A stretch of 64,000 bases of DNA, taken from contig NZ_CP085193.1 of NCBI RefSeq assembly GCF_024298965.1, positions 3,100,001-3,164,000 of the forward strand, read 5' to 3'. Numbering within the stretch: position 1 is the first letter of the stretch; each line of letters starts with the position of its first letter. This DNA comes from Streptomyces rapamycinicus NRRL 5491. GTDB taxonomy: Bacteria; Actinomycetota; Actinomycetes; Streptomycetales; Streptomycetaceae. Under the pieces are notes generated by a model that was given only the letters and a program-made list of their open reading frames with translations, did no database searches and was not told the DNA's origin. Positions 3,914-50,648 of the stretch are shown piece by piece. Both the position numbers and the translations under genes were made by a program.

Positions 3914-5254
3914 ATGTCGAAACAATCGCTGCCCGAACGGGAACGAGTGGCTCGTAGAGCGAGTCTGGCCGCAGCCGCCGGAACGGCGATCGAGTACTAC
4001 GACTACGCGCTCTATGGCTATCTCGCAGTCGTGCTGGCCCGCCTGTTCTTTCCCAGCCACGACGGCCTGGTCGGGTTGCTCAGCACGCTTGGTGTGGTCG
4101 CGAGCGGATCCCTGGTCCGACCGCTCGGCGGACTGTTCTTCGGACGTCTGGGCGATCGCCGTGGCCGCAAGGTGGTCCTGATGGTAACGGTCACCCTGAT
4201 GGGCACAGCGACCACGCTCACGGGCCTGCTGCCCACCTATGCGGCGGTCGGGCTCCTCGCACCGATTCTCCTGACGGTCCTGCGCCTCGTGCAGGGCTTC
4301 TCTGCCGGAGGCGAGGTCGGCGGAGCGGCGTCGCTGTCCACCGAGTCGGCCCCTGCCCGGCGGCGTGGCCTATTCGGCTCTGCGACCTCGATCGGGGTGT
4401 CCCTCGGGCTCGCCGGCGCAGCCGCAACGGTCGGGACACTGACCGACGTCACGTCCGCCGAACAGTTGAATAGCTGGGGCTGGCGGGTACCCTTCCTCAT
4501 CGCCGGGCCCCTGCTGGCGGTTGCCCTTCTCTACCGGATGCGGGTGGAGGACTCCCCACTGTTCGTGGAGATGGTGAAGGAGGCGGCTCCTCCCAAGGCC
4601 CCGGTGACCGAGGTCCTCCAGGCCCACAGGGCTGCCGTCCTCCGGGTAATGGGCATCGCCTACTCGACCATGACCACCGGGGGGATCGCGTCGGTCTATA
4701 TCGTCGTTCATCTGTCGGCGGTGCTGAAGTATCCGTTGGCCGGGGCCCTGTGGCTGGTCGTCCTGATCGCGCTGATGCCGCTGGCGATCATTCCGTGGGC
4801 AGGTTCCCTGAGCGATCGCTTCGGACGGCGCCGCATCTTGGCGGCCGGCATGGGGGGATTCCTCATCCTCGCCGTTCCCTGCTTCTGGATGATGCAGCAG
4901 GGATCTCTCGCACTCGCCGTCGTCGCCACACTGATCCTGAACATTCCCTTCGGCATCCAGCAGGGTGTGGTCTACACGATGTATTCGGAGCTGTTCCCGA
5001 CGCGGGTCCGCTACACCGGCATCTCGCTCGGCTTCAACGTTGGCGGGATCATCGGCACGGGGGTCGTCTCACTGGTATCAACCTCGCTGGTCGCCGTCAC
5101 CGACCTCACCATTGCCCCGGCGTTCTACATCATCTTCGCCGCGGTCGTGGGGCTGATCATCATTGGGACTATGCGCGAGAGCTCAAGCCACGACCCGGCA
5201 GCCGAGTCGCGAGCCAATGAGGCAGCCACGGTGGTCACCAAATCCGCGCAATGA
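3914..5254 (+). CDS. MHS-family major facilitator permease
   Basis: This 446-aa, 12-TM permease belongs to the metabolite:H+ symporter branch (shikimate, alpha-ketoglutarate, proline/betaine carriers). It has the family's opening (TAIEYYDYALYGYLA), the loop 2-3 signature GRLGDRRGRK, the helix-4 motif QGFSAGGEVGGA, and the second-half copy GSLSDRFGRRR. The ATG at 3914 has AAGGGAG 5 nt upstream; an in-frame ATG at 3872 lacks a good site. It probably imports a small organic acid or zwitterion with protons. It is monocistronic, and a hairpin and repeat follow at 5303. Substrate is not predictable. Confidence 0.88.
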   Translation: MSKQSLPERERVARRASLAAAAGTAIEYYDYALYGYLAVVLARLFFPSHDGLVGLLSTLGVVASGSLVRPLGGLFFGRLGDRRGRKVVLMVTVTLMGTATTLTGLLPTYAAVGLLAPILLTVLRLVQGFSAGGEVGGAASLSTESAPARRRGLFGSATSIGVSLGLAGAAATVGTLTDVTSAEQLNSWGWRVPFLIAGPLLAVALLYRMRVEDSPLFVEMVKEAAPPKAPVTEVLQAHRAAVLRVMGIAYSTMTTGGIASVYIVVHLSAVLKYPLAGALWLVVLIALMPLAIIPWAGSLSDRFGRRRILAAGMGGFLILAVPCFWMMQQGSLALAVVATLILNIPFGIQQGVVYTMYSELFPTRVRYTGISLGFNVGGIIGTGVVSLVSTSLVAVTDLTIAPAFYIIFAAVVGLIIIGTMRESSSHDPAAESRANEAATVVTKSAQ

Positions 5255-5302
5255 GCCAGGCGCAGTGGGCGCGGCGTAGCGCAGCAGACGCTGCATCGGC
5301 CC

Positions 5303-5391
5303 GGCCGGGCGTGACCGGCCTGTCAAGTGTCCGAGGGGGGAGTTGGACCGATACCCCACGGATCACACCGATCGTGACTCAGCTGGAGCTT
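5303..5391. repeat. Hairpin plus tRNA-Leu-3'-like repeat, copy A
   Basis: GGCCGG-N6-CCGGCC (5303-5320) is followed by GTGTCCGAGGGGGG (5327-5340) and then TTGGACCGATACCCCACGG. The 14-mer is identical to the reverse complement of the 3' end of the tRNA-Leu gene at 62976-62989. Copies B (45740) and C (55438) have the same order of hairpin, GTGTCCGAGG and TACCCCACGG block. Apart from this, the stretch 5255-5604 holds no gene that I can support. Confidence 0.6.
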
Positions 5392-5604
5392 CACTCTTCG
5401 TGACCGGCGGCTGGAGCGCGAACTCCAGGTTGGGCGGAGGCACTCATACGCCCCTGGTCCGGATGAGAGCGCCCTCGACGATCGCGTTCGTCAGCTGGGC
5501 CAGGAGCCCACTCTCTCCTTCAGACGTAACGGCTACGGGGCCTGTCTGCGGCACTGTCCACCGAGCTGGGTTCCGCGAGCCACCCATGCGAGGTAGTCGC
5601 GACC

Positions 5605-5844
5605 CTAACTGGCGTCGAAGACACCGGCCCCCCACGCCCCGACGACGATGACCAAAATGCTTCCTGCCAGATAGAAGGGTGAATGGCCACCCGGGAGAAT
5701 TGTCACGGCATCGGTGAACTCCTCGATCCAGTTGACCACCGACGTGATCAGGCTGAGCCCGAGAAGGGACCACCCGACAATCCGAGAGGCTCGGGAGCGG
5801 ATGTGCAGTCGACCTACCTTGATCTTTTGCGCTTCCTTGGTCAT
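5605..5844 (-). CDS. Small two-TM membrane protein
   Basis: The 79-aa product has two hydrophobic segments (about residues 24-41, VGWSLLGLSLITSVVNWI, and 56-74, PFYLAGSILVIVVGAWGAG) behind a basic N-terminus. Its start codon overlaps the lgt stop by 4 nt (ATGA), so it is translationally coupled to lgt and was probably acquired with it. I do not recognise a family. It may assist or accompany the neighbouring lipoprotein-modifying enzyme, but that is only a positional inference. Confidence 0.7.
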   Translation of the reverse strand: MTKEAQKIKVGRLHIRSRASRIVGWSLLGLSLITSVVNWIEEFTDAVTILPGGHSPFYLAGSILVIVVGAWGAGVFDAS

Positions 5845-6704
5845 GCCACGGTTCTCTCTTCTGGGTCTGAGCGTACGGATGCGGTGTCGGAGTCCGGCGG
5901 AGCCTCGCGCTCACCGCGCCTCGCCGAACGGATGAGGAAGACGGCAGCCACGGAGAAGACGGCGATCGAGGTCCAGTCGTTGAGGCGAAGCCCCGCGAAG
6001 TCATGGGCCTCGTCGATCCGCAGATACTCGATCCAGAAGCGGCCGACCGTGTACGCGGCGGCATAGAGGGCGAAGGTCTGGCCCCGCTTCAGGGCGGACC
6101 GCCGACCGGCCCACATCAGCAGGAAGGCGACGCCGATGTCCCACAGTGACTCGTAGAGGAATGTCGGGTGGTACGTCGCGATATCGGGGCTGCCCCCTGG
6201 ACGGTGCACGGGATCGATCCTCAGCCCCCACGGAAGCGTGGTCGGTCGCCCGTACAGCTCCTGGTTGAACCAGTTGCCCCAGCGGCCGACGGCCTGGGCC
6301 AAGGCGAGGCCCGGTGCCACGGCGTCCGCGAAGTCGAGCAGCGAGATGCCTTGGCGTCGGCAGCCGATCCAGGCACCGAGCGCACCGAACATGACCGCGC
6401 CCCAGATACCTGGTCCGCCCTCCCAGATCCGCAAAGCCTTCCATGGATTGCCGCCTTCGCCGAAGTACGCGTCGGGGCTGGTGATCACGTGGTACAAACG
6501 GCCGCCGACGACGCCGAACGGCACGGCCCAGATCGCGATGTCGTCCACTTCGTGGCGGTCGTACCCGCGGGCGGCCCAACGTTGCCGGGTGAGCCAAACG
6601 GCCACGAAGATACCCAGGATGATGCAGAAGGCGTACGCCCTCAGAGGCAGTGGTCCCAGGTGTACGACTCCTTGTGCCGGACTGGGCAGGTAAGCGAGTT
6701 GCAT
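5841..6704 (-). CDS. lgt: Prolipoprotein diacylglyceryl transferase
   Basis: Lgt moves diacylglycerol from phosphatidylglycerol onto the lipobox cysteine of prelipoproteins in the cytoplasmic membrane. The 287-aa product has about seven TM segments. It carries the family signature GRWGNWFNQELYG, the GGRLYHVI segment with its conserved Arg and His, and the late YTVGRFWIEYLR motif. It is shorter than the main chromosomal Lgt of most streptomycetes, which usually has a long C-terminal tail. It is therefore likely a second, island-borne copy. It sits beside two lipoprotein genes (9467, 10295) that could be its clients. A palindrome resembling BlaI/CopY operators lies 20 nt upstream. Confidence 0.9.
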   Translation of the reverse strand: MQLAYLPSPAQGVVHLGPLPLRAYAFCIILGIFVAVWLTRQRWAARGYDRHEVDDIAIWAVPFGVVGGRLYHVITSPDAYFGEGGNPWKALRIWEGGPGIWGAVMFGALGAWIGCRRQGISLLDFADAVAPGLALAQAVGRWGNWFNQELYGRPTTLPWGLRIDPVHRPGGSPDIATYHPTFLYESLWDIGVAFLLMWAGRRSALKRGQTFALYAAAYTVGRFWIEYLRIDEAHDFAGLRLNDWTSIAVFSVAAVFLIRSARRGEREAPPDSDTASVRSDPEERTVA

Positions 6705-8250: not shown

Positions 8251-8791
8251 GATCGCTCCCTTCGCCCCCGGAATGCGAAGCCTCCGGCACCGGTGACCGC
8301 TCATCGTAGTGGGCCGATTCCCGGAGCCCTGCGGAGCCTTGGCGAGGAGGCGAGGTCGGCACGGGGCAAGCGGCTGCCGCACGGAGCCGCCGCACCAGGG
8401 CGTGTGCGAGCAACACCAGCGAGACCACGGCCAGGACCGGCTGCGCGGGGGCCCAGTACGAGAGGGCTCCGCTCACCCCGAGGGCCAGCACCACCAGCTT
8501 GTTGCAGATCGGGCAGCCGACCGCGAACGCGGACAGCACACCCGCGAGCAGCGCCCGGCGCCCTCGCGGCCCATCGGTCCGCGCGGCCAAAGGCCCATGC
8601 ACGTACGTCGCCACCAGCAGTCCCATGAGCAGCGATGACGCCACCCAGACCGGATAGTTCCACCACAGCACCGGGGTCATCCGGGTATAGAAGGGCGTGC
8701 GTACGACTCCGGTCGGCACACCGATCGCGGCTCCGGCGGTAAGGGCCACGGCCACCGCCACCACCCACTGACGTGGCGTCCACGTACGCAT
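8234..8791 (-). CDS. Four-TM membrane protein with CPIC motif
   Basis: The 185-aa protein has about four TM helices. The third carries GCPICNKLVVLALG, where a CXXC pair inside a helix could bind metal or form a redox pair. The C-terminal 40 residues are hydrophilic. The ATG at 8791 has GAGAGGCGG upstream. It heads the operon with the BlaI-type repressor and the M48 peptidase and lies 25 nt from a CTACT/AGTAG palindrome, so it is probably repressor-controlled. The molecular role is unknown; metal handling is inferred from motif and neighbours. Confidence 0.75.
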   Translation of the reverse strand: MRTWTPRQWVVAVAVALTAGAAIGVPTGVVRTPFYTRMTPVLWWNYPVWVASSLLMGLLVATYVHGPLAARTDGPRGRRALLAGVLSAFAVGCPICNKLVVLALGVSGALSYWAPAQPVLAVVSLVLLAHALVRRLRAAAACPVPTSPPRQGSAGLRESAHYDERSPVPEASHSGGEGSDRASAG

Positions 8792-8815
8792 GCGCCCGCC
8801 TCTCTGCCGCCACCA

Positions 8816-8837
8816 CTACTGCCAAACAACTTAGTAG
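8816..8837. promoter_or_regulatory. Probable BlaI/CopY-type operator
   Basis: CTACT-N12-AGTAG lies in the gap between the divergent membrane-protein operon and the DUF6153 gene. Dyads of this kind are the usual operators of actinobacterial BlaI/CopY repressors. It could control both directions. Confidence 0.55.
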
Positions 8838-38180: not shown

Positions 38181-38256
38181 ATAAGTTACGTGGAATCAGG
38201 CTGAAGGATGGACCAGCCGTCGAGGGCGGTACGTGGGCCCAGGTCTCGCGTTGAGC

Positions 38257-38502
38257 GTGTTCGTGACGGCGTTGTCGGAGAAGTGGCCGGTCCTGGAACG
38301 GCATGAGCGGGCGGCCGAGTGGCTGCAGATCGGGTTGGATCTGGGCCGGGCGCCCCGGACGATCGACGCGTACGCCCGTGGTCTGAGCGAGTTCTTGCTG
38401 GCGTGCGAGCGGGACGGGATCGATCCGGAGGGGGCCAACCGCAGTCATGTGGCCTCGTTTGTAGGTGAGTTGAGGACGCAATTGCCGCTGCCCGTAAGGT
38501 GA
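38257..38502 (+). pseudogene. N-terminal fragment of a tyrosine recombinase
   Basis: ALSEKWPVLERHERAAEWLQIGLDLGRAPRTIDAYARGLSEFLLACERDG resembles, in successive blocks, the SAM-like core-binding domain of a phage-type or transposon-type integrase. The catalytic domain is absent, because at 38500 the sequence switches to a serine-recombinase tail. Confidence 0.65.
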
Positions 38503-40399: not shown

Positions 40400-40930
40400 T
40401 CACCTCTCGGCGTATTGCAGGAACAGCACACCCAGGACGACGAGTCCGGCGGCTTCCAGAATGGAGACCGCGACCAGAAGGGCGCTGTCCATGCTGTGGC
40501 ACCAGAAGGTGATAAGCGCGGCAAAGGGAGTGACGAGGAAGGCCACCAGATCGACGACTGTCTGTGTGGTCTTGCGCGAGATCCGTCTGTCGTCGCTGCG
40601 ATGGTAGGTCTCCCAGCCGAACAGCGGTTCCTCCACGTTTGTGGCCTCGGCGAGCCGGGACGCGAGCTCGGTGCGGACGTAGCGTCCGATGGCTGAGATC
40701 TTTTCGTCGTTGACCAGGTGCGTCCATCCGAGCACAAGACACACCACCGGAAGGGCCAGGATCAGCTGCGGGTAGTCCGTCTGCGCGGCGACAGCCGCGA
40801 CGGCGGTCACCGCCGCGAGCGTCACGTACAGCAGGTTGTCCCGAAAGCCGATACGTGCCCGCTGCTCGTCCTTGATCTGTGCGTACTCGGCAAGGAGTAG
40901 GGCGCTAGTGCTCCGTTCGCTGTCCGTCAT
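40400..40930 (-). CDS. Four-TM membrane protein
   Basis: The 176-aa protein begins with the hydrophilic helix SALLLAEYAQIKDEQRARIG. Two hydrophobic hairpins follow: about residues 30-68 (LLYVTLAAVTAVAAVAA and LILALPVVCLVLGW) and about 125-172. No catalytic motif is present. The two-by-2TM layout resembles membrane effector proteins of bacterial conflict systems. It lies 150 bp downstream of the NUDIX-PNP-TM operon behind a hairpin terminator, so it is probably a separate but related unit. Confidence 0.7.
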   Translation of the reverse strand: MTDSERSTSALLLAEYAQIKDEQRARIGFRDNLLYVTLAAVTAVAAVAAQTDYPQLILALPVVCLVLGWTHLVNDEKISAIGRYVRTELASRLAEATNVEEPLFGWETYHRSDDRRISRKTTQTVVDLVAFLVTPFAALITFWCHSMDSALLVAVSILEAAGLVVLGVLFLQYAER

Positions 40931-41016
40931 GACTGGCTGTCACCCTCGTTTTCGCGACACCGTGGCAGGGGGGTGGCTCGGTGGTATTCATACTCGGCCC
41001 GTGGTGCCTGGACCTT

Positions 41017-41048
41017 CAGGGAGCTGCCGTGCTCTCGGCAGCTCCCTG
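41017..41048 (-). terminator. Hairpin terminator of the NUDIX-PNP-TM operon
   Basis: Perfect 13-bp arms (CAGGGAGCTGCCG and its complement) around a 6-nt loop lie 34 nt beyond the stop of the multi-TM gene. There is no U-tract, as is common in streptomycetes. Confidence 0.7.
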
Positions 41049-41081
41049 GCCGGTCGGCCTCCGGATCCGGTCCGGGAGGAC

Positions 41082-43130
41082 TCAGTCGGTGCTGTTCGCG
41101 GGCGGTGGACTGTCGGCGTTGTTCCGCTCGACCCAGGCCTTCCCGTCGGCCGCGATGCCCTCCAGGAGACGAAAAGTATGGGCGAAGCCGGCCGCGTCGA
41201 GGTTGATCTGCGAGAGGTCCCGGGCGTTCTCGTACGGTTCGAGCTGGTGGCTGTCGGCGTCCTTGATCCGGATGGTTCTGGCCGGGCCGTTGGAGAGGAG
41301 CAGCGCCATCTCGTAGCCGATGCGGTCGTCCTCGGTGACCTGCACGGAGGAGAACGCGTCGAAGCGGTAGTTGGTGCGTTGTTCGCCCGGGCGAGTGGCA
41401 CGGGCGAAGTCGACTACGGTGCTGATCTCGCGGATACCGTTCCGTGTGGCCAGGAACAGCCGGAGGGTGTATCGGGAGTAGCGCCAGGGGCCGCCTCGGC
41501 GCCGTGCTCGTCTGTAGGGGCGTGCCGGTGTCGTCAGGATCGTGTGGGCGATGATGTCGTACCAGGTGAGCTGGTGGTGACGGAGCACATCGGCGGTGAA
41601 CAGGATCTTGTCGTGGCTGAGCCACGCCTCCATCTCGGCGTCGGAGGGCCGGATGGCTTCCAGTTGCTCCTTCCAGCGCTGGAACTCCTCCTCACGTGCG
41701 TACATCCGCAGGTGGTACTCCTGCGTCTCCTCGGCGAACCGCTGTTCCTCGCTGCGTATGTGCAGCCACACCGACGCTGCCCGGCGCCCGCTCCCGATGG
41801 CGCCGATGAACACGGCGAACGTCAGGAGCCCGTGGAGCGCACTCGCCGAACCTGTCGCGGCGGTGGCGGTGGCGGCCAGGGACGTGAGGCCCAGGACGGC
41901 GAGGGCGGGCACGCAGGCGAGTTTCGTCGTCACCGGAGTCCGGTACTGCTGTCGGTGGGCGAACAGCGTGCCGTTGTTGTGGCGGTCCTTGGCGTCCCGG
42001 GCCAGGTAGCGGATCAGCCAGTTGACCCGGTCGACGCTGATTCTGCTCTCCCGGTAGAGGAACGCGACCTCGGCGGCCAGAACGGCGCGGATGCCAGTGG
42101 TGTGGGCGAGCCACTCGGGCCGGTCGCACCCGTGCGGCACGTACGTGCCGAAGTAGTGCTCGAAGGACTTGCGGACGCCGCTGGTGAACCCGTCCGCCGC
42201 GAGGGTCCCGCCGCCCGCGGACGCGGGGGAGGGAACAGCCGGGGAGTGGGCCGGATCCGGTACCGGCTCCTGGTTCGACGCTTGGCCCAGCTCCTGCTCC
42301 TTGGACTGGAGCCGGTGCTTGTTGTGCCACCATCGCTGGCCGAACCTGGCGGCGAGGAATCCGGTGCCGAGCGCGATCAGCAGCTCGACGATCGCGGTCA
42401 GCGGCTCCGCGATCACTGCCGAGATCCCGAGGAATCCCGCAGTGACGACGAACAGACCGGTCCAGGCCGCCAGGCGAGGATGGTGACGGAAAGCGGTGCT
42501 CTCCTCGGGAGGCCGGGTCCGTGCCCCGATGGGATCGGGCTCGAAGTAGTACCGCACCCGCCGGGAGCGGTCACCACGGAACTGCCCGGCCTTGGCGAGC
42601 TCGCAGATCTCGGCCCACAGGGTGGCTTTTGTCCGGCTGGTGAGCACGAGGTCGAGGTGGTGGACGATCAGGTCACGCTGGGGCGGTGCCAGATCCCTCA
42701 GCCGCTTCAGCACGGCGGCGGTCTCACTGTCAGCTTTGCCGGGCAGTGCCAGCAGATCGAAGACGACCTGCAGACCGGGCTTCCAGTCCTTGTCCTCGGC
42801 GTAGCCCTGCATGACGTCCCGCGTCCGGTCCAGCTGACGGCGCTCCTCGGCACTGAGGTCGTGGTGGGCGCGTTTGCTGAGCATGGCGAGCGCCCAGTGG
42901 AAGCGGATCTGCGGGCCGTCGTGGTTGTGGGTGATCGCGTCCCAGATCAGTTCCCGCGCCCGGCCGGGTAAGCCTTCTTCCAGACAACGGACACCGACCT
43001 CGTACTTCTTCTGGGGCGAGGCGTCCGGCGGGACAATGTTGTTGATGGTGGAGTCGAATATGATCCCGGCCTGGGCGCCGACGAAGGAGTCGTGCGCCTC
43101 GTTGTGCGTGGAGGGGAAGCCCTCGGTCAT
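41082..43130 (-). CDS. Multi-TM protein with N-terminal amyloid-like motif
   Basis: The 682-aa product has a short motif near residues 16-30 (FVGAQAGIIFDSTIN). An alpha-helical TPR-like region follows (about 40-185; YEVGVRCLEEGLPGRARELIWDA). A first TM hairpin lies at about 221-262, a Pro/Ala linker at about 288-305, and a helical region with a second TM hairpin at about 402-447. A cytoplasmic C-terminal half reads FDAFSSVQVTEDDRIGYEM. The start overlaps the upstream PNP gene stop (ATGA). Its motif aligns with one in the PNP protein (AG-[EI]-[VI]-x-[GD]-S-T-[VI]), suggesting the two associate. It is a candidate membrane effector; enzymatic motifs are not visible. Confidence 0.85.
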   Translation of the reverse strand: MTEGFPSTHNEAHDSFVGAQAGIIFDSTINNIVPPDASPQKKYEVGVRCLEEGLPGRARELIWDAITHNHDGPQIRFHWALAMLSKRAHHDLSAEERRQLDRTRDVMQGYAEDKDWKPGLQVVFDLLALPGKADSETAAVLKRLRDLAPPQRDLIVHHLDLVLTSRTKATLWAEICELAKAGQFRGDRSRRVRYYFEPDPIGARTRPPEESTAFRHHPRLAAWTGLFVVTAGFLGISAVIAEPLTAIVELLIALGTGFLAARFGQRWWHNKHRLQSKEQELGQASNQEPVPDPAHSPAVPSPASAGGGTLAADGFTSGVRKSFEHYFGTYVPHGCDRPEWLAHTTGIRAVLAAEVAFLYRESRISVDRVNWLIRYLARDAKDRHNNGTLFAHRQQYRTPVTTKLACVPALAVLGLTSLAATATAATGSASALHGLLTFAVFIGAIGSGRRAASVWLHIRSEEQRFAEETQEYHLRMYAREEEFQRWKEQLEAIRPSDAEMEAWLSHDKILFTADVLRHHQLTWYDIIAHTILTTPARPYRRARRRGGPWRYSRYTLRLFLATRNGIREISTVVDFARATRPGEQRTNYRFDAFSSVQVTEDDRIGYEMALLLSNGPARTIRIKDADSHQLEPYENARDLSQINLDAAGFAHTFRLLEGIAADGKAWVERNNADSPPPANSTD

Positions 43131-44320
43131 GCCGGTTCACCCGCCGCCGCGATCAAGGACGCAAGACCGGAGGCCAGTTCCGGGTGGCCGTCGAGCAGGC
43201 CGCGTAACTTCCTGAGCGCCATAGCTGCCTTCTTCGGAGGCGCCGGGGCGTTCGCGGTGCACTTCTCCGCTGCGCGCCTCGCGATGCTCAGTTCGGCCTG
43301 TGCCTCATGGTGAATGTCCGCGTCGAGGGTCCCGTCGGCGTGGTGTCGTGCCAGGTGCTCCCGGAAGCGGTCCAGCTCCGCGACCAGTTCCGCCGGGGTG
43401 GATGCCTTCGGAGCTGCCCCGCTGACATGGACGGTGCTGCCGGTGACCTCTCCGGCCATGATTCCCACCGTGCTGGAAAAGGCCGTGTTGACGACGCTTC
43501 CGCCGCCCCTGCCAGTTCTGTCTTTCTGAGCCATGACAATCTGCTCCTCTTCCTCTGCTTCCACTGCCAGTTCTGCTTCCTTGATCAGTTCCGCAGCCAG
43601 CCGTACCGCGAAAGCCGCCGCGTTCGCCGCGGCGCGCGGTTGCCGATCGCGGTCCTCCGCGCCGTTCTTCGTGCCGTCCGCCCGGTCACTGATGCCACGG
43701 ACGACGCCGACCGGCAGGCCGCTGAGATGGCCGGCCTGTGCCACGCCGGCGGCTTCCATGTCGATCGCGAACGCGTCGTTGTAGTGCTGCCGGAGCCATG
43801 CGGCCTCGGCGGAGTTCCGCGAGTTCTGCAGGACCTCACCGGCGGCTATCGGGCCGAAGTGCACCCGCGGCACTTCCCCGTTCTCCGGTGCGTGGCCGGC
43901 CCGGTCCGTCATCCGGGCCAGATGCTGGCCGAGCTGGATGATGGGGTGCGGCGCCTCCCACACCCGGGGCCGCGCCTTGAGCCCGTCGTCCTCGCTGGTC
44001 GCGCCGTGGTAGGCGTACACATGGGTGGCCATCACCACGTCGCCCAGCGCGATCGAGCTCCGCATGCGGCCGGCGACACCGACGAACAGCACGGCTGCCG
44101 GAGAGAAGTGCTCGATAGCGCGCTCCGCCAGCACTGCGGCCGAATGGTTCCCCTTGCTCGTCAGACCGAGTGCCACACGGCACGAGGTGCCCGGCACCGT
44201 CCCGACCTCGAACCGCGTGCCGGTCTTGTGCACGGTCACCTGCGGATCGGCCAGTTTCCGGTGCACGGCCTCGTATTCAAGATTGAGGGCGGTGAGAATC
44301 ACCACCAGGTCATTTGGCAT
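43127..44320 (-). CDS. Nucleosidase/PNP-domain protein with amyloid-like motif
   Basis: Residues 1-245 of this 397-aa protein form a PNP_UDP/MTA-SAH nucleosidase domain: VVILTALNLEYEAV, LFVGVAGRM, FAIDMEAAGVAQAG, VVRGISDRADGTKNG. An acidic linker and a Gly-rich motif follow (274-300, ending IMAGEVTGSTVHV). A C-terminal helical domain spans about 303-395. Such nucleosidase domains occur as N-terminal modules of bacterial and fungal NLR-like immune proteins, but there is no NTPase here. It may hydrolyse or sense a purine nucleoside. Six nt separate it from the NUDIX gene, and it overlaps the TM gene by 4 nt. Confidence 0.88.
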   Translation of the reverse strand: MPNDLVVILTALNLEYEAVHRKLADPQVTVHKTGTRFEVGTVPGTSCRVALGLTSKGNHSAAVLAERAIEHFSPAAVLFVGVAGRMRSSIALGDVVMATHVYAYHGATSEDDGLKARPRVWEAPHPIIQLGQHLARMTDRAGHAPENGEVPRVHFGPIAAGEVLQNSRNSAEAAWLRQHYNDAFAIDMEAAGVAQAGHLSGLPVGVVRGISDRADGTKNGAEDRDRQPRAAANAAAFAVRLAAELIKEAELAVEAEEEEQIVMAQKDRTGRGGGSVVNTAFSSTVGIMAGEVTGSTVHVSGAAPKASTPAELVAELDRFREHLARHHADGTLDADIHHEAQAELSIARRAAEKCTANAPAPPKKAAMALRKLRGLLDGHPELASGLASLIAAAGEPA

Positions 44321-44326
44321 TTCTTC

Positions 44327-45085
44327 TCATTCCTTCGCGTCTTCCTCTGTTCGTTCTTCCGCCTGCTGTTCCGCCGGTGCCGGCACGGGCCGGACCAGCG
44401 GAGGCGAGAGCACCGTGGTCGGTCCCGCGCGGAACAGGCGTGCGGGGCGCCCCACCGTGGTCCTGCGTCCCGTCCCGGCCGGAACGATGAACCCGTCCAC
44501 GGCCTGGACCTTCCGGTAGAAATTCCGGGTGTCGAGCGTGACGCCCCACACCGCCTCGTACACCTGCCGCAACTCGGCGATGGTGAAAAGGTCTCCACAG
44601 AACGCCGTGGCCAGTGCGGAGAACTCGAGTTTCGTACGGGCGCGTTCAATTCCGTCCGTCACTATCCGATCGTGATCGAAAGCGAGCTTCATCTGCCCGG
44701 AAAGGACCGTGTCCGTCGGAATCCATGAGGCATTCGCGGCATCCGTTCCCGCGACCGGCTCAGGAAGGCGCGGCGCGATCGCCAGATGCGCAACCGAGAC
44801 GACCCGCCCACGCGGATCGCGCCCTGGATCCCCATAGGTGGCCAACTGCTCCAGATGAAACTGCCGGGCATCAACAGCGGTTTCCTCGCCCAGCTCGCGG
44901 CGAGCGGCCTCCGGGATCGCCTCACCGGCGTGGTTGAGGAAACCGCCGGGCAGCGCCTGCATGCCAGCGAAGGGTTCCTTGCCCCGCTCCACGAGCAGGA
45001 CACACAGCCGCCCCTCACGCAACGTCAGGATTACAAGGTCAACTGTGAGCAGAACGGACGGCGGCGCCCAGGAATCATCACGCAT
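44327..45085 (-). CDS. NUDIX domain protein with winged-helix tail (NrtR-like)
   Basis: The N-terminal NUDIX domain of this 252-aa protein spans residues about 8-150, with the box GGFLNHAGEAIPEAARREL then GEET. It has one extra residue between the first Gly and Glu and Ala for the usual Gly after EE-T, so catalysis is uncertain. The C-terminal region (FTIAELRQVYEAVWGVTLDTRNFYRKVQAVDGF) matches the winged helix of NrtR-type regulators. The ATG at 45085 has no ribosome site and lies 7 nt from a TANNNT -10 box, so the mRNA may be leaderless. An ADP-ribose or nucleotide signal could relieve repression of its own operon. Confidence 0.88.
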   Translation of the reverse strand: MRDDSWAPPSVLLTVDLVILTLREGRLCVLLVERGKEPFAGMQALPGGFLNHAGEAIPEAARRELGEETAVDARQFHLEQLATYGDPGRDPRGRVVSVAHLAIAPRLPEPVAGTDAANASWIPTDTVLSGQMKLAFDHDRIVTDGIERARTKLEFSALATAFCGDLFTIAELRQVYEAVWGVTLDTRNFYRKVQAVDGFIVPAGTGRRTTVGRPARLFRAGPTTVLSPPLVRPVPAPAEQQAEERTEEDAKE

Positions 45086-45092
45086 GGTGCCG

Positions 45093-45121
45093 ACCGTATC
45101 GGGTTGCTGTCACATTGACAA
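45093..45121 (-). promoter_or_regulatory. Promoter and likely autoregulatory operator of NUDIX operon
   Basis: On the minus strand TTGTCA and TACGGT are separated by 17 nt, the spacing of a housekeeping-type promoter. TGTCA-N3-TGACA (45108-45120) overlaps the -35 element, a natural site for a dimeric winged-helix regulator such as the NUDIX protein encoded just downstream. Confidence 0.6.
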
Positions 45122-45273
45122 TAAGCGTCCTCGATCTGCCCTCTGCGGCAGATCACCTCTATGACCCGGACGAGCAAGAACCGGGACTGCAAGACGTTCG
45201 GCTCCCGTAATCGGTGGCAACCAGGAGCGACAAGCATCGTTGGCGTGGTGTGCGAGATGTCAAGGAGCTTGTG

Positions 45274-45510
45274 AACGTGGTGATTTCGAGGTTGTCGGTA
45301 CTGGTCATCGAGGGTGTGACGGACGAGGGCGATCTGATCCGGGTGACGGCGCGGACCCAGGATGGTCTCCGGTGTCGTGCCCCACGTGTGGGACGCCTCC
45401 AGGGCGGGTGTACGGGTTCCACGGGCGGGTAGTGGCGGACGTTCCGGTGGACGGACGTCGGGTCGTCGTCTCGGTGCAGGTCCGGCGCCTGTCAGTGATT
45501 ACTACACAGC
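45274..45510 (+). pseudogene. N-terminal ISL3-family transposase fragment
   Basis: VVISRLSVLVIEGVTDEGDLIRV in one frame and SCPTCGTPPGRVYGFHGRVV plus ADVPVDGRRVVVSVQVRRL in another form the zinc-binding N-terminus (CPXCG) of an ISL3 transposase. The DDE domain is gone. A frameshift lies near 45365. Confidence 0.8.
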
Positions 45511-45688
45511 GCTACCACCGATTACGGTACAGAGCCGCTCGTTTGACAGATTCCCACTCAGCGCACAACAGATCCGGGATACCGCCGGAGTCTCGGAGGG
45601 ACTGCGCAACGTATCCGCACAGTCAGCACAGGGCAGAAAGACCCGCTCCACGATGCCCCCGACATCACCATCAGCTACGAACACGCAA

Positions 45689-45720
45689 CAAGGGCCGCGA
45701 CCGTAAGGTCGAGGCCCTTG
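45689..45720. terminator. Hairpin adjoining repeat copy B
   Basis: CAAGGGCC-GC-GACC-GTAA-GGTC-GA-GGCCCTTG forms a nearly perfect stem with one internal mismatch pair. It could terminate transcription in either direction. Confidence 0.65.
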
Positions 45721-45739
45721 TCTCCGTATCGCCAGGCTC

Positions 45740-45820
45740 GTGTCCGAGGGGGTATCTGGACCAATACCCCACGGCTCACACCCCTCACGACGGTGCTGGC
45801 GCTGGCGTAGCCACGGGATT
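45740..45820. repeat. tRNA-Leu-3'-like repeat, copy B
   Basis: GTGTCCGAGGG is followed by GGGGTAT and ATACCCC arms of a second hairpin, then CACGGCTCACACC and GTGCTGGCGCTGG. It aligns over about 70 bp with copies A and C and with partial copy D. It carries a hairpin 20 nt to its left. Confidence 0.6.
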
Positions 45821-45974
45821 GACACGTGAGGCGGTTCCCGGACCACGGCCGGGAGCGCGACGGACGGCAGCGTCTACCGCCGGGCCCGCAGCACGAGACC
45901 ATGGACGTCAGCGGGAGGGATCCCCGCGGAGCCGCGCTCAGGTGACGTGGTAGTTCGCGATCAACCTGCACCTG

Positions 45975-46510: not shown

Positions 46511-47314
46511 GTGCGCGGAGAGGGCAAGTGGGAGCACACCGGTCGCAGCTACCGGAGCATCGCCCGCTACTGGCATGTCCTGGACCCGATCCTCAAGGGG
46601 TGGCTCGCGGACGGTACCGAGAGCCTGCGCGAGATCACTCAGGACGACGTCAAGCGCGCCATCGCCACCCGCAAGGGGACGCCGGCCCGCTCGATCCACA
46701 TCGTCCTTCGGAACGTCTTCCGGGCCCTTCGGCAAGAAGGTGTGATCTTCCGCGATCCCACCCGCGGCCTCGTCTTCGCCGGGATCAACAAGCCCCCACC
46801 TTCCGTGCCCTCGGACCGGCTGGCTGGCGTCCTCAGCCACGCACGGAACGAATTCCAACGCTTCGTGATGGTGCTGGTCTGCGTTCACGCGCTCAGCGGC
46901 ACCGACATGCGCCACCTGCTACTCACCGACCTCGACCTGTCCCGTGAGCGCCTCATCGTCCGGCGCCCCGGCAAACGGCACATCATCTACCTGGACGAAC
47001 TCACCTACCGTTGCGCCTCCGCGTGGCTGCGTGAACGTCACCGCCGCTGGCCGGTAACCACCAACCCGCATCTGCTGATCAACCGATGGACTGCGGTAGA
47101 CACCACTCACTCGCCCATCGGCACCACGTTCGCCAACATCTTCCGGCCCACCGGACTCACGATGCCGACGCTGCGGCAAGACCGAATCCGCGATGAGGCG
47201 TTCGAGGTCGACGACCCGCTCCACCTGATGCGCCTGTTCGGCATCTCCTCGCAGACCGCCATGCGGTACATCACCGCGGCCCACCCTGAACGCACCGCGA
47301 AGCTGCCCCGGTAG
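46511..47314 (+). CDS. Degenerate tyrosine recombinase/integrase
   Basis: The 267-aa product has a core-binding segment (YWHVLDPILKGWLADGTESL) and a catalytic-domain-like half with Arg in SGTDMRHLLLTDLDL and Tyr in TAMRYITAAHPER. The HxLRH box reads PTLRQDRIRDEA, so both usual His residues are absent and activity is doubtful. It is shorter than full integrases and probably lost its N-terminal region. It lies left of a direct repeat shared with 51081, so it may mark an element edge. Confidence 0.65.
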   Translation: MRGEGKWEHTGRSYRSIARYWHVLDPILKGWLADGTESLREITQDDVKRAIATRKGTPARSIHIVLRNVFRALRQEGVIFRDPTRGLVFAGINKPPPSVPSDRLAGVLSHARNEFQRFVMVLVCVHALSGTDMRHLLLTDLDLSRERLIVRRPGKRHIIYLDELTYRCASAWLRERHRRWPVTTNPHLLINRWTAVDTTHSPIGTTFANIFRPTGLTMPTLRQDRIRDEAFEVDDPLHLMRLFGISSQTAMRYITAAHPERTAKLPR

Positions 47315-47659: not shown

Positions 47660-48119
47660 AGTGCACCGTAGAGCCGGCCGGACCACATCGGGGCCAGAAC
47701 CAGGCACCCCGTCGCCCACCGCCGCACGGCTACCTCAACCCAGGCGTCCCGCAGTCTGGTTGCGGCGGCCGCTCACCTGATTGGGTGAACTCCACGGCTC
47801 TGGGCGGTGGTTGTGTCGCGGACAGTGGCAAATTCCGTGCTGCACGTCGGTGGCTCATCACCGGCGTCCGCCTCATGCCGCCTCCGGCGGAGCAGGAGCA
47901 AGCTGCGAGAGGTCCAGGCGCCACCGAGGCGCTGTTGGGGCTGATCGTTCTTCGGACGCTGGCCGGTGGACCGTACGGGGCGAGGACCGCCGCACACCCT
48001 CACGGTGTCGGCCCGATTCCTCGTCGGCACGAGGCTTCGGCACTCGGGCGCGTGACACGCTCCCGATGGTCGGGAGTTTCTGTGCTCGCCCGGGATGCCC
48101 CGGGTGGAAGGACGACACC
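47660..48119. other. Gap with no supported gene
   Basis: About 460 bp precede the 842-aa gene. Open frames here lack recognisable motifs. The promoter of the downstream gene presumably lies here but no clear consensus was seen. Confidence 0.4.
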
Positions 48120-50648
48120 ATGGCCGTGAAACGGTCCGACGACATCTACCCGCAGATCGGCAACGCCCTCTGGGCCGACCGTCTGGCGGACGCAATCGAG
48201 AACACCTGCGCGGACTACGAGGTCGTACCGCCTCCGCGGCAGGCGATCCTCGAGGGTCTGGCCGCCGCGCTCCCGGACACCGAGATCAAGGCCCTGATCG
48301 CCACCCAGCGCGGCAGGAAGGTCCTCAAGCCCACCGTCTGCCGGCCCGCGAAGGCCGGCGACGAACAGGTGCTCCTGCTGACCTGCGATGTCCACGGCGC
48401 CGCGGTGGTTCCGTGGGACCTCAACGACCGCACGGCCAGCTGCTGGTCGTCGCCCGCCCCGGAGGCCAGCCAACGCGTCAAGGACCTCGTCGCCGTCGAG
48501 CTAGCGCTCCAGGACGCCGCGAAGGGCGCGAAGTCCGCCGAGAAGGAGCGGGAGGCGCTGCGCCGGGCGCCCGGGGACGACACGTACGCGTCGCAGGCGT
48601 TGGCGGCGGCCACACAGAAGCATCAGGACGCCATCCGTCACCTGCACGAGCTTGAGGCCGAGAAGCACGCTCTGCTCGCCGCGCTGGGCCACCGGCGGCC
48701 GCGCCCGGTGGTCCGCGCCGTCCATGAGGACGGGCAGCCGAAGGCGGCGCTCACCCTCGCCGAGCAGCCGTACGCGGTGGCCGTGCACATGCAGCGGTAC
48801 GCCGCCGATAACCTGAAGCGCGCCGGCACGAAGCGCGGGTACGACCTGGCCGAGTCCCTCGCGGACGCGGGCCAGCTTTCCAAGGGCATGAACGTCCTGC
48901 AGCAGTGGCAGATCACCCACGCCGACGGCACGGTGTCGAAGCCGTGGCGGCTGGCTGCGGTGACGGGGAACAACCGTGCGCTGGCCCGGTTGGATGTCTT
49001 CCGGGTACGTCCGGAGCACCTGGTCATGGGCATGCCGCAGTCTCTCGTGCCCCTGCCGAAGGACAAGAAGGACGGCCCCGAGCCCCTGCTGCTGAGTCTG
49101 CGGGAGATCCTGAACCGCCTCTCTGCCCGGCTCAACCGGGATGGTGCGAAGCCGGAGACGGAGGCGACCGACCCGTCGCTCCGGGCGGCGAAGATCGCCA
49201 CGGTGTCCGCGGAGATCGTGATCGGCTGCACGAATCCCGAGGCCCTGGAACACGTCCTGCGGGCCCTGAACGTCAACGACCACCTGCGCGGCATCCAGCC
49301 CTACGACGAGGACGCGCGGCTGATCGCCCTGTTCGCGACGCTGGTCGACGCCTACGCCAGGGAGTCCCTCCTCGCGGACGCGCTCGCTGAGGCGTTCCCC
49401 GACGCGCGCGGGGCGGACCTCCTCGATCTGACGGGGGTGCGCGACGCGCTGACGGTCAACGGGCCGCTCGATCCGCTGGAGCCGCTCGTGCCCGCGGGCG
49501 CCGACCTCTCCCCGGTCGTGCTGCGTGACATCGCGGTGCAGGCCATCACCGCCTTGGTGTTCCCCGGGATTCCGCCCGAGGCGCCGCAGCAGGCGAACGG
49601 GCGCACCGTCCGCGACACCGGACGGTTTTGGCCGGTCGTCAGGGGGACGCTGCAGGAGCCGGCGTGGAGCCAAATCCGGGCGAAGGCAGCCGAAGGGCGT
49701 ATGCGTCTGTGGTCCGCCGCCGTCGCGCAGCTGTTCGTGCACCGGGGCAACATCCTCTCCGCCCTCGGCCTCTTCGGCACCACGGAGACCAAGGAGGGCG
49801 CCGGACAAGATCCGAGGCCGCTCACGGAGCTGCTCCTCGGGGCGGAGGCCGGTGACGCGACCGCCTGGACCGCCCTGGTCCGGCGGATGACACCGGCGCT
49901 GATCCACGCTCCGCAGCCGTTCATCACCCCGGGGCAGGGCAGCGAGGCCAGCGATGGGCGCAAGGGAGTGCGCCGCACCCCCAAGAGCGCCCTCGCCGCC
50001 TTGACACTGGCGTACACGGTGGGCGCGCCAGGTGTCAGCCGGGCCCTTCTGCTCGCGTTCGCGAAGGCAGTGCTGAAGCAGCCGGATGCGCCGCGGCCGC
50101 CCGAGCCGGACGATGGCACGCCCCTGATCTGTTACGGCGAGCAGCATTGGGCCGAGGCAGACCGGACGGCGATCACTGCGGGGATGGTGATCGCCCCTGA
50201 CACCGAGGGCCGGCCCACCCGTTACGTCGCCGACAAGGCGTGGTTCGACGAGCTGTTCCCCGTGAGCCTCGGTACCCCTGCGCCGACCGCGTCCGCAAAC
50301 TCCGCCGACGCACCTGCGGGCGCCGGGAACACCGCGGACGCCGACACCCCGCCCATCGCGCACGGCGAGGCGGCCCCCGACCCGCGCGACCAGCTCGCCA
50401 AGCTGCGCCGGGAACTGCCGGCGCGGGTCGAACTCGCCGAGGGGAATTACCAGAAGGCGGTGGACGCCTCCCACGCCCTGATGACGGACTTCGAGGAGGC
50501 GCACCGCCTGCGTGTCCAGCTTGAGGAGGAGTCGCTCCCGGCCGAGCGGCGGATCGAGTGGATGGAGAAGCTGTCGAAGGCCCGGGCCGCGGCGCAAGCC
50601 AGCGTGACGACGCTCGAACAGGTGGAAGCGCTGATCCTCAAGATCTGA
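48120..50648 (+). CDS. Large protein of unknown function, coiled-coil ends
   Basis: The 842-aa product starts MAVKRSDDIYPQIGNALWAD. A coiled-coil region lies at about residues 125-190 (VELALQDAAKGAKSAEKERE). A segment around residue 280 reads LAAVTGNNRALARLDVFRV, vaguely like the GNNR/DGQ-type loops of ParB-like proteins. Alpha-helical central domains follow, then a low-complexity Ala/Pro linker near 730 and a second coiled coil at the C-terminus (ERRIEWMEKLSKARAAAQAS). No signal or TM segments are seen. I do not recognise the family. It sits between direct repeats and beside defence-type genes, suggesting a mobile or immune role. Confidence 0.7.
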   Translation: MAVKRSDDIYPQIGNALWADRLADAIENTCADYEVVPPPRQAILEGLAAALPDTEIKALIATQRGRKVLKPTVCRPAKAGDEQVLLLTCDVHGAAVVPWDLNDRTASCWSSPAPEASQRVKDLVAVELALQDAAKGAKSAEKEREALRRAPGDDTYASQALAAATQKHQDAIRHLHELEAEKHALLAALGHRRPRPVVRAVHEDGQPKAALTLAEQPYAVAVHMQRYAADNLKRAGTKRGYDLAESLADAGQLSKGMNVLQQWQITHADGTVSKPWRLAAVTGNNRALARLDVFRVRPEHLVMGMPQSLVPLPKDKKDGPEPLLLSLREILNRLSARLNRDGAKPETEATDPSLRAAKIATVSAEIVIGCTNPEALEHVLRALNVNDHLRGIQPYDEDARLIALFATLVDAYARESLLADALAEAFPDARGADLLDLTGVRDALTVNGPLDPLEPLVPAGADLSPVVLRDIAVQAITALVFPGIPPEAPQQANGRTVRDTGRFWPVVRGTLQEPAWSQIRAKAAEGRMRLWSAAVAQLFVHRGNILSALGLFGTTETKEGAGQDPRPLTELLLGAEAGDATAWTALVRRMTPALIHAPQPFITPGQGSEASDGRKGVRRTPKSALAALTLAYTVGAPGVSRALLLAFAKAVLKQPDAPRPPEPDDGTPLICYGEQHWAEADRTAITAGMVIAPDTEGRPTRYVADKAWFDELFPVSLGTPAPTASANSADAPAGAGNTADADTPPIAHGEAAPDPRDQLAKLRRELPARVELAEGNYQKAVDASHALMTDFEEAHRLRVQLEEESLPAERRIEWMEKLSKARAAAQASVTTLEQVEALILKI

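Follow-up and report, generated by a model that had tools for sequence, protein, structure and literature searches.

How are the products of an operon connected that combines a NUDIX-winged-helix regulator, an enzyme of the purine nucleoside phosphorylase (PNP) fold and a membrane (TM) protein? We followed this question in a stretch of 64,000 nt from Streptomyces rapamycinicus NRRL 5491 (NZ_CP085193.1, positions 3,100,001–3,164,000 of a 12.47-Mb chromosome), which we call the window and whose numbering is used throughout. The three genes lie on the minus strand at 41082–45085 in the order NUDIX-winged helix, PNP, TM gene. The first two are separated by a 6-nt gap and the last two share a 4-nt ATGA overlap, which confirms the coupling seen in an earlier reading of the DNA letters (the original prediction). 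We propose, with somewhat more confidence than doubt, that the operon regulates itself and encodes a switch, anchored in the membrane, that would work by motif templating and without an NLR.

A motif pair in the nucleosidase and the membrane protein

The same short motif is found in the products of the adjacent PNP and TM genes, and in the TM protein it is N-terminal. A Gly/Ser/Thr-rich similarity between the PNP protein (about residues 274–300) and the TM protein (about residues 16–30) had been part of the original prediction, and it proved to be beyond chance. We aligned 80 pairs, which removal of identical PNPs reduced to 68 pairs with distinct PNP sequences; loci at contig ends (L026, L117, L118) and broken copies (L151, L152) had been left out before counting. 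When the TM N-terminus was compared with the whole PNP protein, the motif was the best match in 68/68 pairs, with a mean score of 49.4 versus 24.9 elsewhere. The reverse search, PNP motif against whole TM protein, likewise found the TM motif as best match in 68/68 pairs. For the window pair, the local score was 41 compared with a shuffle mean of 19.6, and 0/1000 shuffles scored as high.

Conservation among orthologues, a check that had been set beforehand, was found for both motifs, i.e., they are conserved islands in close relatives. In the 68 pairs, the PNP motif keeps G286 (99%), A289 (100%), V292 (99%), S295 (96%) and V297 (96%); the linker preceding it has a mean top-residue frequency of 0.47, and the helical module comes after it. 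The TM motif keeps S15 (91%), G18 (93%), Q20 (96%), A21 (94%) and S27 (87%), and its position 24 is V in 94% (I in the window). Examples from other loci are the pairs NTAHNSTVGIMAGSVKESSVYL and NSAAYDSTVGIQAETVHNSNVYFV (L044), GFQAGQVSGG and GFQAGEVSGG (L037), ARVGQQIDVNHGPI and ARVGQVIGQNYGRI (L039), and NYGDSYGSQIG and NWGDSWGPQFG (L060).

We then compared motif pairs between lineages, with lineages and members picked by hand in all co-change and ranking tests. For eight lineage representatives, 2/40320 permutations reached the cognate sum, the identity itself being one of them. Ten lineages (37 pairs) yielded p 0.0005 in each of 200 random draws, which is the floor for 2000 permutations, and nine lineages regrouped by family (38 pairs) yielded a median p of 0.0005 and a maximum of 0.001. 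L062 was left out of the 18-motif ranking and the ten-lineage test and included in the nine-lineage test. L173 (family f19) was placed with f20 by motif in the ten-lineage test and with other f19 and Pseudonocardiales-type loci in the nine-lineage test. Four cyclase-type groups, described below, had a median p of 0.0425, near the smallest attainable.

A number of results weigh against such a coupling. The median p was 0.0021 for the six PNP-type groups alone (ten-lineage grouping) and 0.0105, with a maximum of 0.054, for the five PNP-type groups of the nine-lineage grouping. The cognate TM protein was top-ranked for just 10/18 enzyme motifs; it ranked 7 of 18 for the window and 2–7 for L141, L144, L146, L149, L040 and L061, and the L138 motif pair was no better than shuffled sequence (94/1000). 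Moreover, the PNP core mostly has M (84%) where the TM core has Q (96%), and about 95 residues follow the PNP motif, unlike the C-terminal motifs of described effectors. From the p values of the smaller sets and the cognate ranks we conclude that specificity exists at the level of lineages and that much of the signal is the split of distant lineages. It is nevertheless highly likely, as judged from the sequence comparisons, that enzyme and TM protein are coupled via their paired motifs.

The PNP protein matches Pfam PNP_UDP_1 across residues 6–241 (1.4e-32) and is nearest by sequence to methylthioadenosine/S-adenosylhomocysteine (MTA/SAH) nucleosidases, including MTA/SAH nucleosidase structures. 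E15, E189 and D212, which we take to be the catalytic residues as in MTA/SAH nucleosidases, were invariant in 68/68 distinct PNP relatives. Two PADLOC models match the protein, the effector model PDLC00759 (6.9e-22) and a second one (1.3e-12).

The TM protein matched no Pfam family above the cut-off, no transporter family in Pfam and no PADLOC model, and no NTPase domain was found by Pfam in it or in its distant relatives. Its structure model (mean predicted local distance difference test score, pLDDT, of 77.6) shows a disordered N-terminus, TPR-like helices, two long-helix pairs and a PH-like C-terminus, with about four membrane segments in all. In the motif region, pLDDT is below 50 at residues 1–24 and 26–30. 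The whole model found nothing below 1e-3 in Foldseek; its TPR-like and PH-like parts were matched separately by VIA-align with middling Z, from which we claim no family. Structure matches of residues 200–486 to ABC exporters probably reflect long-helix resemblance, and we rejected this identity. One TM relative (P0170) carries a database name beginning 'SMODS and SLOG-associating 2TM effecto...', a hint by another annotator of a link to conflict systems.

What kind of contact could the motifs make? The published PP core is NxGxQxGxN (excerpts of PMC9815663). The motifs resemble RHIM, PP and BASS3 in a G-x-Q core. The likeness is clearest at L060, whose partners both carry a G-x-Q-[IF]-G core, closer to the published RHIM/PP core than any other seen; in the majority of members the core is G-[IVF]-Q-A or G-I-M-A. 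No Pfam match to RHIM was obtained for the window proteins at E up to 1, and profiles often miss such short motifs; we assume that Pfam includes a RHIM model. A cross-β (amyloid) nature of the assembly is plausible, and we would give it even chances. The motifs might instead form a non-amyloid contact, by β augmentation or in a mixed sheet, within a static enzyme-TM complex at the membrane. Co-change and conservation need only a specific contact, and the PNP motif is internal with helices after it, which both suit a static complex. Given that the motif is short and predicted to be disordered on the TM side, and that some lineages come near the published G-x-Q-x-G core in both partners (L060 as above, GFQAG in L037), we consider it rather unlikely.

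Exchange of the enzyme and of its regulator

Comparison of the loci shows that the enzyme part is exchangeable, being by sequence and predicted fold either a PNP or a class III cyclase, and that the regulator mostly changes along with it, i.e., NrtR with PNP and Crp type with cyclase. A cyclase stood in place of the nucleosidase beside 7/8 distant TM relatives, with motif and helical module at the same places as in the PNP protein. The partner protein at L066 has a class III cyclase fold (Foldseek to Cya2, 1.9e-7, probability 1.00); Pfam and PDB sequence searches of the cyclase-type proteins gave no cyclase match. D29, D71, N136 and R140 were invariant in six aligned cyclases, and we presume that the first two are the two metal Asp and the last two the Asn-x3-Arg pair. 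With the whole L066 TM protein as a tblastn query against nine loci, the enzyme motif was found at E values, valid for this small set, of 2.4e-7 (L066), 1.4e-4 (L064) and 8.8e-4 (L061). A Crp-type regulator is encoded upstream in 6/7 cyclase loci, and for two of these regulators Pfam confirmed cyclic nucleotide (cNMP)-binding and Crp helix-turn-helix (HTH) domains.

Two loci count against this scheme. L066 has a cyclase and no Crp gene, and L060 encodes, beside its TM relative, a 122-aa protein of motif plus module without enzyme (8465–8833, minus strand).

Relatives of the cyclase protein show further domain arrangements. P0080, a distant relative (7e-14, 54% of the query covered), combines cNMP-binding and Crp HTH domains (PF00027, PF13545) in one chain, a fusion that fits the cyclase-Crp pairing. 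P0027 has a TIR-type Pfam domain (PF13676) in the same chain. A weak second stretch of the helical module (6.5e-6), with a glycine/valine-rich motif and no trio member in 13 kb, occurs at L179 (G172:C24:52329–52703); it was not used. The helical module could be part of a broader group of Streptomyces proteins.

The regulator matches Pfam NUDIX (9.3e-16) and NrtR_WHD (5.5e-14). It also matches the NCBIfam NtrR model at E 1.4e-33, yet below the cut-off (116.4 of 400 bits), and in PADLOC it has one weak match (0.02). A sequence TGT-N6-GACA lies 31–36 nt before the NUDIX start in 69/70 distinct upstream sequences (82 loci), against a shuffle expectation of 0.26%, and extends in some of them to a perfect or near-perfect palindrome of 21–23 bp. 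In the window's 12.47-Mb genome the operator pattern, with up to 2 mismatches, has a single site, at the operon itself. A pair TTGNNN-(17 or 18)-TANNNT ends 7 nt before the start in 57/70 upstream sequences, and the palindrome overlaps its -35. As to the single promoter of the original prediction, a generic sigma-70 scan detected nothing at the window operon, but a promoter-like pair is conserved in relatives. Because this pair ends 7 nt before the ATG, the operon message is probably leaderless.

Regulation by the NUDIX-winged-helix protein, as originally predicted, fits an operon-specific palindrome over the promoter. In all likelihood the operon is autoregulated through its own NrtR-type protein on this presumed operator. 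According to excerpts of PMC6800001, NrtR of Mycobacterium smegmatis (MsNrtR) is an autorepressor that ADP-ribose releases from DNA. Both proteins have a Nudix and a winged-helix domain and a palindrome at their own promoter, of 23 bp for MsNrtR, but the palindromes differ in their letters (CTTCTTGT...ACARGAAG type against GTTTTCGA-N7-TCGAAAAC). In contrast to MsNrtR, the window palindrome precedes this operon, and the genome search gave no second site. L039 is the one upstream sequence of the 70 without TGT-N6-GACA. This most divergent PNP-type locus (5074–6355, plus strand) has two NUDIX-like matches and no palindrome, and its PNP protein is shorter and lacks the helical module.

Could the operon simply serve housekeeping, i.e., nucleoside or NAD salvage under NrtR with the TM protein for uptake? 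NrtR controls NAD genes elsewhere (excerpts of PMC6800001), and the enzyme resembles MTA/SAH nucleosidase. We regard this as very improbable, since the TM protein is patchy (33/392 genus genomes) and the operator is confined to one genomic site. Moreover, TPR-like and PH-like parts, and no Pfam transporter family, were seen in the TM protein, and salvage leaves motif pair and cyclase exchange unexplained.

Proposed direction of signaling and relation to described systems

Described amyloid-motif pairs are encoded by adjacent genes, and the effector carries the motif on its C-terminal side, the receptor at its N-terminus (excerpts of PMC9815663 and PMC7889193). Bacterial amyloid signaling sequences (BASS1–10) occur with BELL effectors and NLRs (excerpts of PMC7889193 and PMC8086366). 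As far as these excerpts go, the operon shares with BASS systems adjacent or overlapping genes, the motif positions in effector and partner, occurrence in actinobacteria and a diversity of motif families. It differs in that its partner protein is of TPR-TM-PH-like build with no NTPase domain found, an enzyme replaces BELL, a helical module follows the motif and the operon has its own, presumably autoregulatory, transcription factor. We do not file it as a BASS member, because an NLR (NB-ARC/NACHT) partner was tested for and not found in Pfam and the amyloid nature is only plausible.

The nearest precedent seen are the fungal systems in which PNP_UDP effectors with a PUASM motif accompany NACHT receptors (excerpts of PMC9815663). 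As here, a PNP_UDP domain is followed by a glycine-rich motif that is repeated N-terminally in the product of the neighboring gene. The operon is bacterial, uses another motif and includes a regulator gene, and no NACHT or WD40 was found. Swaps between a cNMP cyclase and a PNPase domain beside a constant core are likewise described for the VMAP/vWA and TRADD-N conflict systems (excerpts of PMC7159879 and PMC8195603). Pfam finds no vWA, MoxR, STAND or TRADD-N in the three proteins, and the excerpts do not describe the operon. With bacterial ATP nucleosidase defense effectors (see also an excerpt of PMC10197012) it shares the PNP-fold enzyme, and no known sensor partner of theirs was seen here. 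A search of open-access literature found no description of the operon. Its parts are of known kinds; what sets it apart is that no NLR is involved, that the partner protein is TPR-TM-PH-like, that one and the same module follows either of the exchangeable enzymes, and that the transcription factor matches the enzyme.

The motif positions follow the rule of the described pairs, so that the enzyme would act as effector, with the TM protein as its receptor or anchor; the TPR-like and PH-like parts and the enzyme exchange also fit. By this analogy, we lean slightly toward the TM protein as receptor or scaffold and the enzyme as effector. The original prediction had assigned the opposite roles, with the nucleosidase as sensor whose motif templates the TM protein, which then permeabilizes the membrane. 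Its direction is probably reversed. Under these roles the motifs would sit the other way round than in described pairs, and the membrane segments lie between TPR-like and PH-like parts. The enzyme, in turn, keeps its presumed catalytic residues and is exchanged for another enzyme fold, as one would sooner expect of an effector or a producer of a signal than of a sensor that is merely passive. The original assignments would be in line with the TM protein's roughly four membrane segments and its frequent small four-segment partner (G4, see below), and excerpts of PMC7889193 present the BELL effector of bacterial pairs as presumably membrane-targeting. We consider these assignments unlikely.

With the TM protein as receptor, a signal at the membrane or via the TPR-like domain would act on the TM protein. 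Its disordered N-terminal motif would assemble and template the matching enzyme motif, so that the enzyme is gathered and switched on at the membrane. The PNP might then hydrolyze a purine nucleoside or nucleotide, either for depletion or as a signal. The regulator could read the resulting nucleotide state, ADP-ribose in the case of NrtR and cNMP in that of Crp, and set operon expression; such nucleotide feedback is a tentative suggestion. Equally tentative is the complete scheme, an NLR-free amyloid signalosome in which a TPR/PH membrane receptor templates a nucleotide enzyme through a motif pair private to the two, and the nucleotide under the enzyme's control is sensed by the operon's transcription factor (Crp with cNMP, or NrtR with ADP-ribose or a related nucleotide). 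Present in many actinobacteria, the operon offers a concrete candidate for amyloid-type signaling without an NLR-type receptor, and the joint replacement of enzyme and transcription factor hints at the quantity being measured. If the scheme holds true, its nucleotide switch would be exchangeable and self-adjusting.

Distribution and surroundings of the operon

The 33 genus genomes with the TM protein comprise 25 close and 8 distant copies. Besides the window, PNP is adjacent in 24/24 close copies and NUDIX in 23/24, the exception lying on a 3.5-kb contig. Among 58 named loci, PNP stands beside TM in 58/58 and NUDIX in 56/58 (short contigs account for the remaining two); 55 have the 4-nt overlap. 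They stem from Streptomyces, Kitasatospora, Streptacidiphilus, Haloechinothrix, Saccharopolyspora, Halosaccharopolyspora, Actinopolyspora, Actinosynnema and Amycolatopsis, plus one record titled Saccharothrix; the closest named records to the window are Streptomyces sp. NBS 14/10, S465, S. endocoffeicus and S. antioxidans. The trio is not universal, as NUDIX and PNP are missing at the loci of the genus's eight distant TM relatives, which have other partners instead. Co-occurrence of the trio, also a check set beforehand, thus stood for close relatives wherever flanking sequence was available and failed for these eight. Two of the 58 (L151, L152) are apparently broken, with PNP and TM frames interrupted, though intact copies are common.

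A motif-plus-module profile, with 18 rows drawn from TM-protein loci and 10 candidates scored per genome, matched in 31/384 genus genomes, all 31 of which also have the TM protein. G423 and G426, TM genomes outside the 31 and with adjacent PNP, may lie outside the 384 drawn. Class-wide, the motif module was found in 13/296 genomes at E 1e-5, and 11/11 outside the genus have all three genes.

The features of the operon are listed in Table 1. The hairpin that the original prediction placed after the operon is present; it has no T run after its arms, and a terminator scan detected no terminator there. The region 41000–41085 that includes it has a folding z of -4.7.

Table 1. Features of the operon and its immediate surroundings, in window coordinates
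Feature	Position	Strand	Basis
NUDIX and NrtR-type winged-helix regulator, 252 aa, gene 1 of the operon	44327..45085	-	Pfam
PNP/MTAN-fold nucleosidase with motif and C-terminal helical module, 397 aa	43127..44320	-	Pfam PNP_UDP_1
PNP-side motif, residues 274-301	43418..43501	-	alignment conservation
Helical module 3' of the PNP motif, residues 310-397	43130..43393	-	alignment, profile search; common to cyclase-type partner proteins
TM protein, 682 aa: N-terminal motif, TPR-like repeats, two membrane-segment pairs, PH-like domain	41082..43130	-	
TM-side motif, residues 9-34, mostly disordered in the model	43029..43106	-	conservation, pLDDT
TPR-like helical repeats, TM residues 39-195	42546..43016	-	
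First long helical pair, TM residues 213-285, two membrane segments	42276..42494	-	model; hydropathy maxima 225-241, 243-261
Second membrane-segment pair, TM residues 400-460	41751..41933	-	model; hydropathy maxima 404-420, 429-445
PH-like C-terminal domain, TM residues 509-661	41148..41606	-	
Conserved palindromic operator TTATTGTCAATGTGACAGCAA, presumed NrtR-type site	45104..45124	-	upstream-sequence comparison
Promoter-like TTGTCA-17-TACGGT, -35 inside palindrome	45093..45121	-	read from sequence and comparison
Hairpin, 13-bp arms, 3' of the TM gene, no T run	41017..41048	-	folding
G4, accessory small membrane protein, 176 aa, beyond the hairpin	40400..40930	-	

The small membrane protein G4, missed in the first reading, has four hydrophobic segments. 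It was matched at 44/58 named loci, on the same strand and 5–174 nt downstream; partial or doubtful matches within the 44 are L117 (contig end), L140 (47 aa) and L128 (40% identity, 250 aa). It was not found at nine Pseudonocardiales-type loci (order checked for Saccharopolyspora only) and five Streptomyces loci of the 58. Its best PDB sequence match had E 0.093, and it had no PADLOC match. We rejected a pore family for G4, for which there were weak matches only, i.e., PRA1 in 8/20 (best 0.0021) and 8xMP in 3/20 (best 0.0029).

Grouping by 800 bp of shared sequence sorted the flanks of 54 loci with 4 kb on both sides into 40 groups upstream and 43 downstream. Most flanking DNA thus differs from locus to locus, and what is conserved is the operon itself. 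We scanned 77 flanking proteins (130–700 aa, simple codon-bias rule, within 4.5 kb) from 23 loci; 25 of the 58 had been sampled and two yielded none. PADLOC matches at E 1e-10 were mad3 (2 proteins), PDC-S03 (2), AriA (2), PDC-S14 (1), GajB models (1) and RTasHel (1), some of which may fall on the same proteins. The Pfam families were mostly metabolic (among 25 of 70 listed), a further point that does not favor the proposed switch. Neither the flanking genes nor the PADLOC matches lend phage defense much support, and the sampled flanks speak neither for nor clearly against it.

In the window, 47781–50648 (plus strand) is an open frame of 955 aa with no Pfam or PADLOC match at 0.01. Probable mobile-element remnants lie on both sides of the operon, at 45240–45953, 46511–47314 and 38233–38502 (all plus strand); they show a zinc ribbon of ISL3 type (1.1e-7) and two weak SAM-like domains of phage integrases that fall slightly short of the cut-off.

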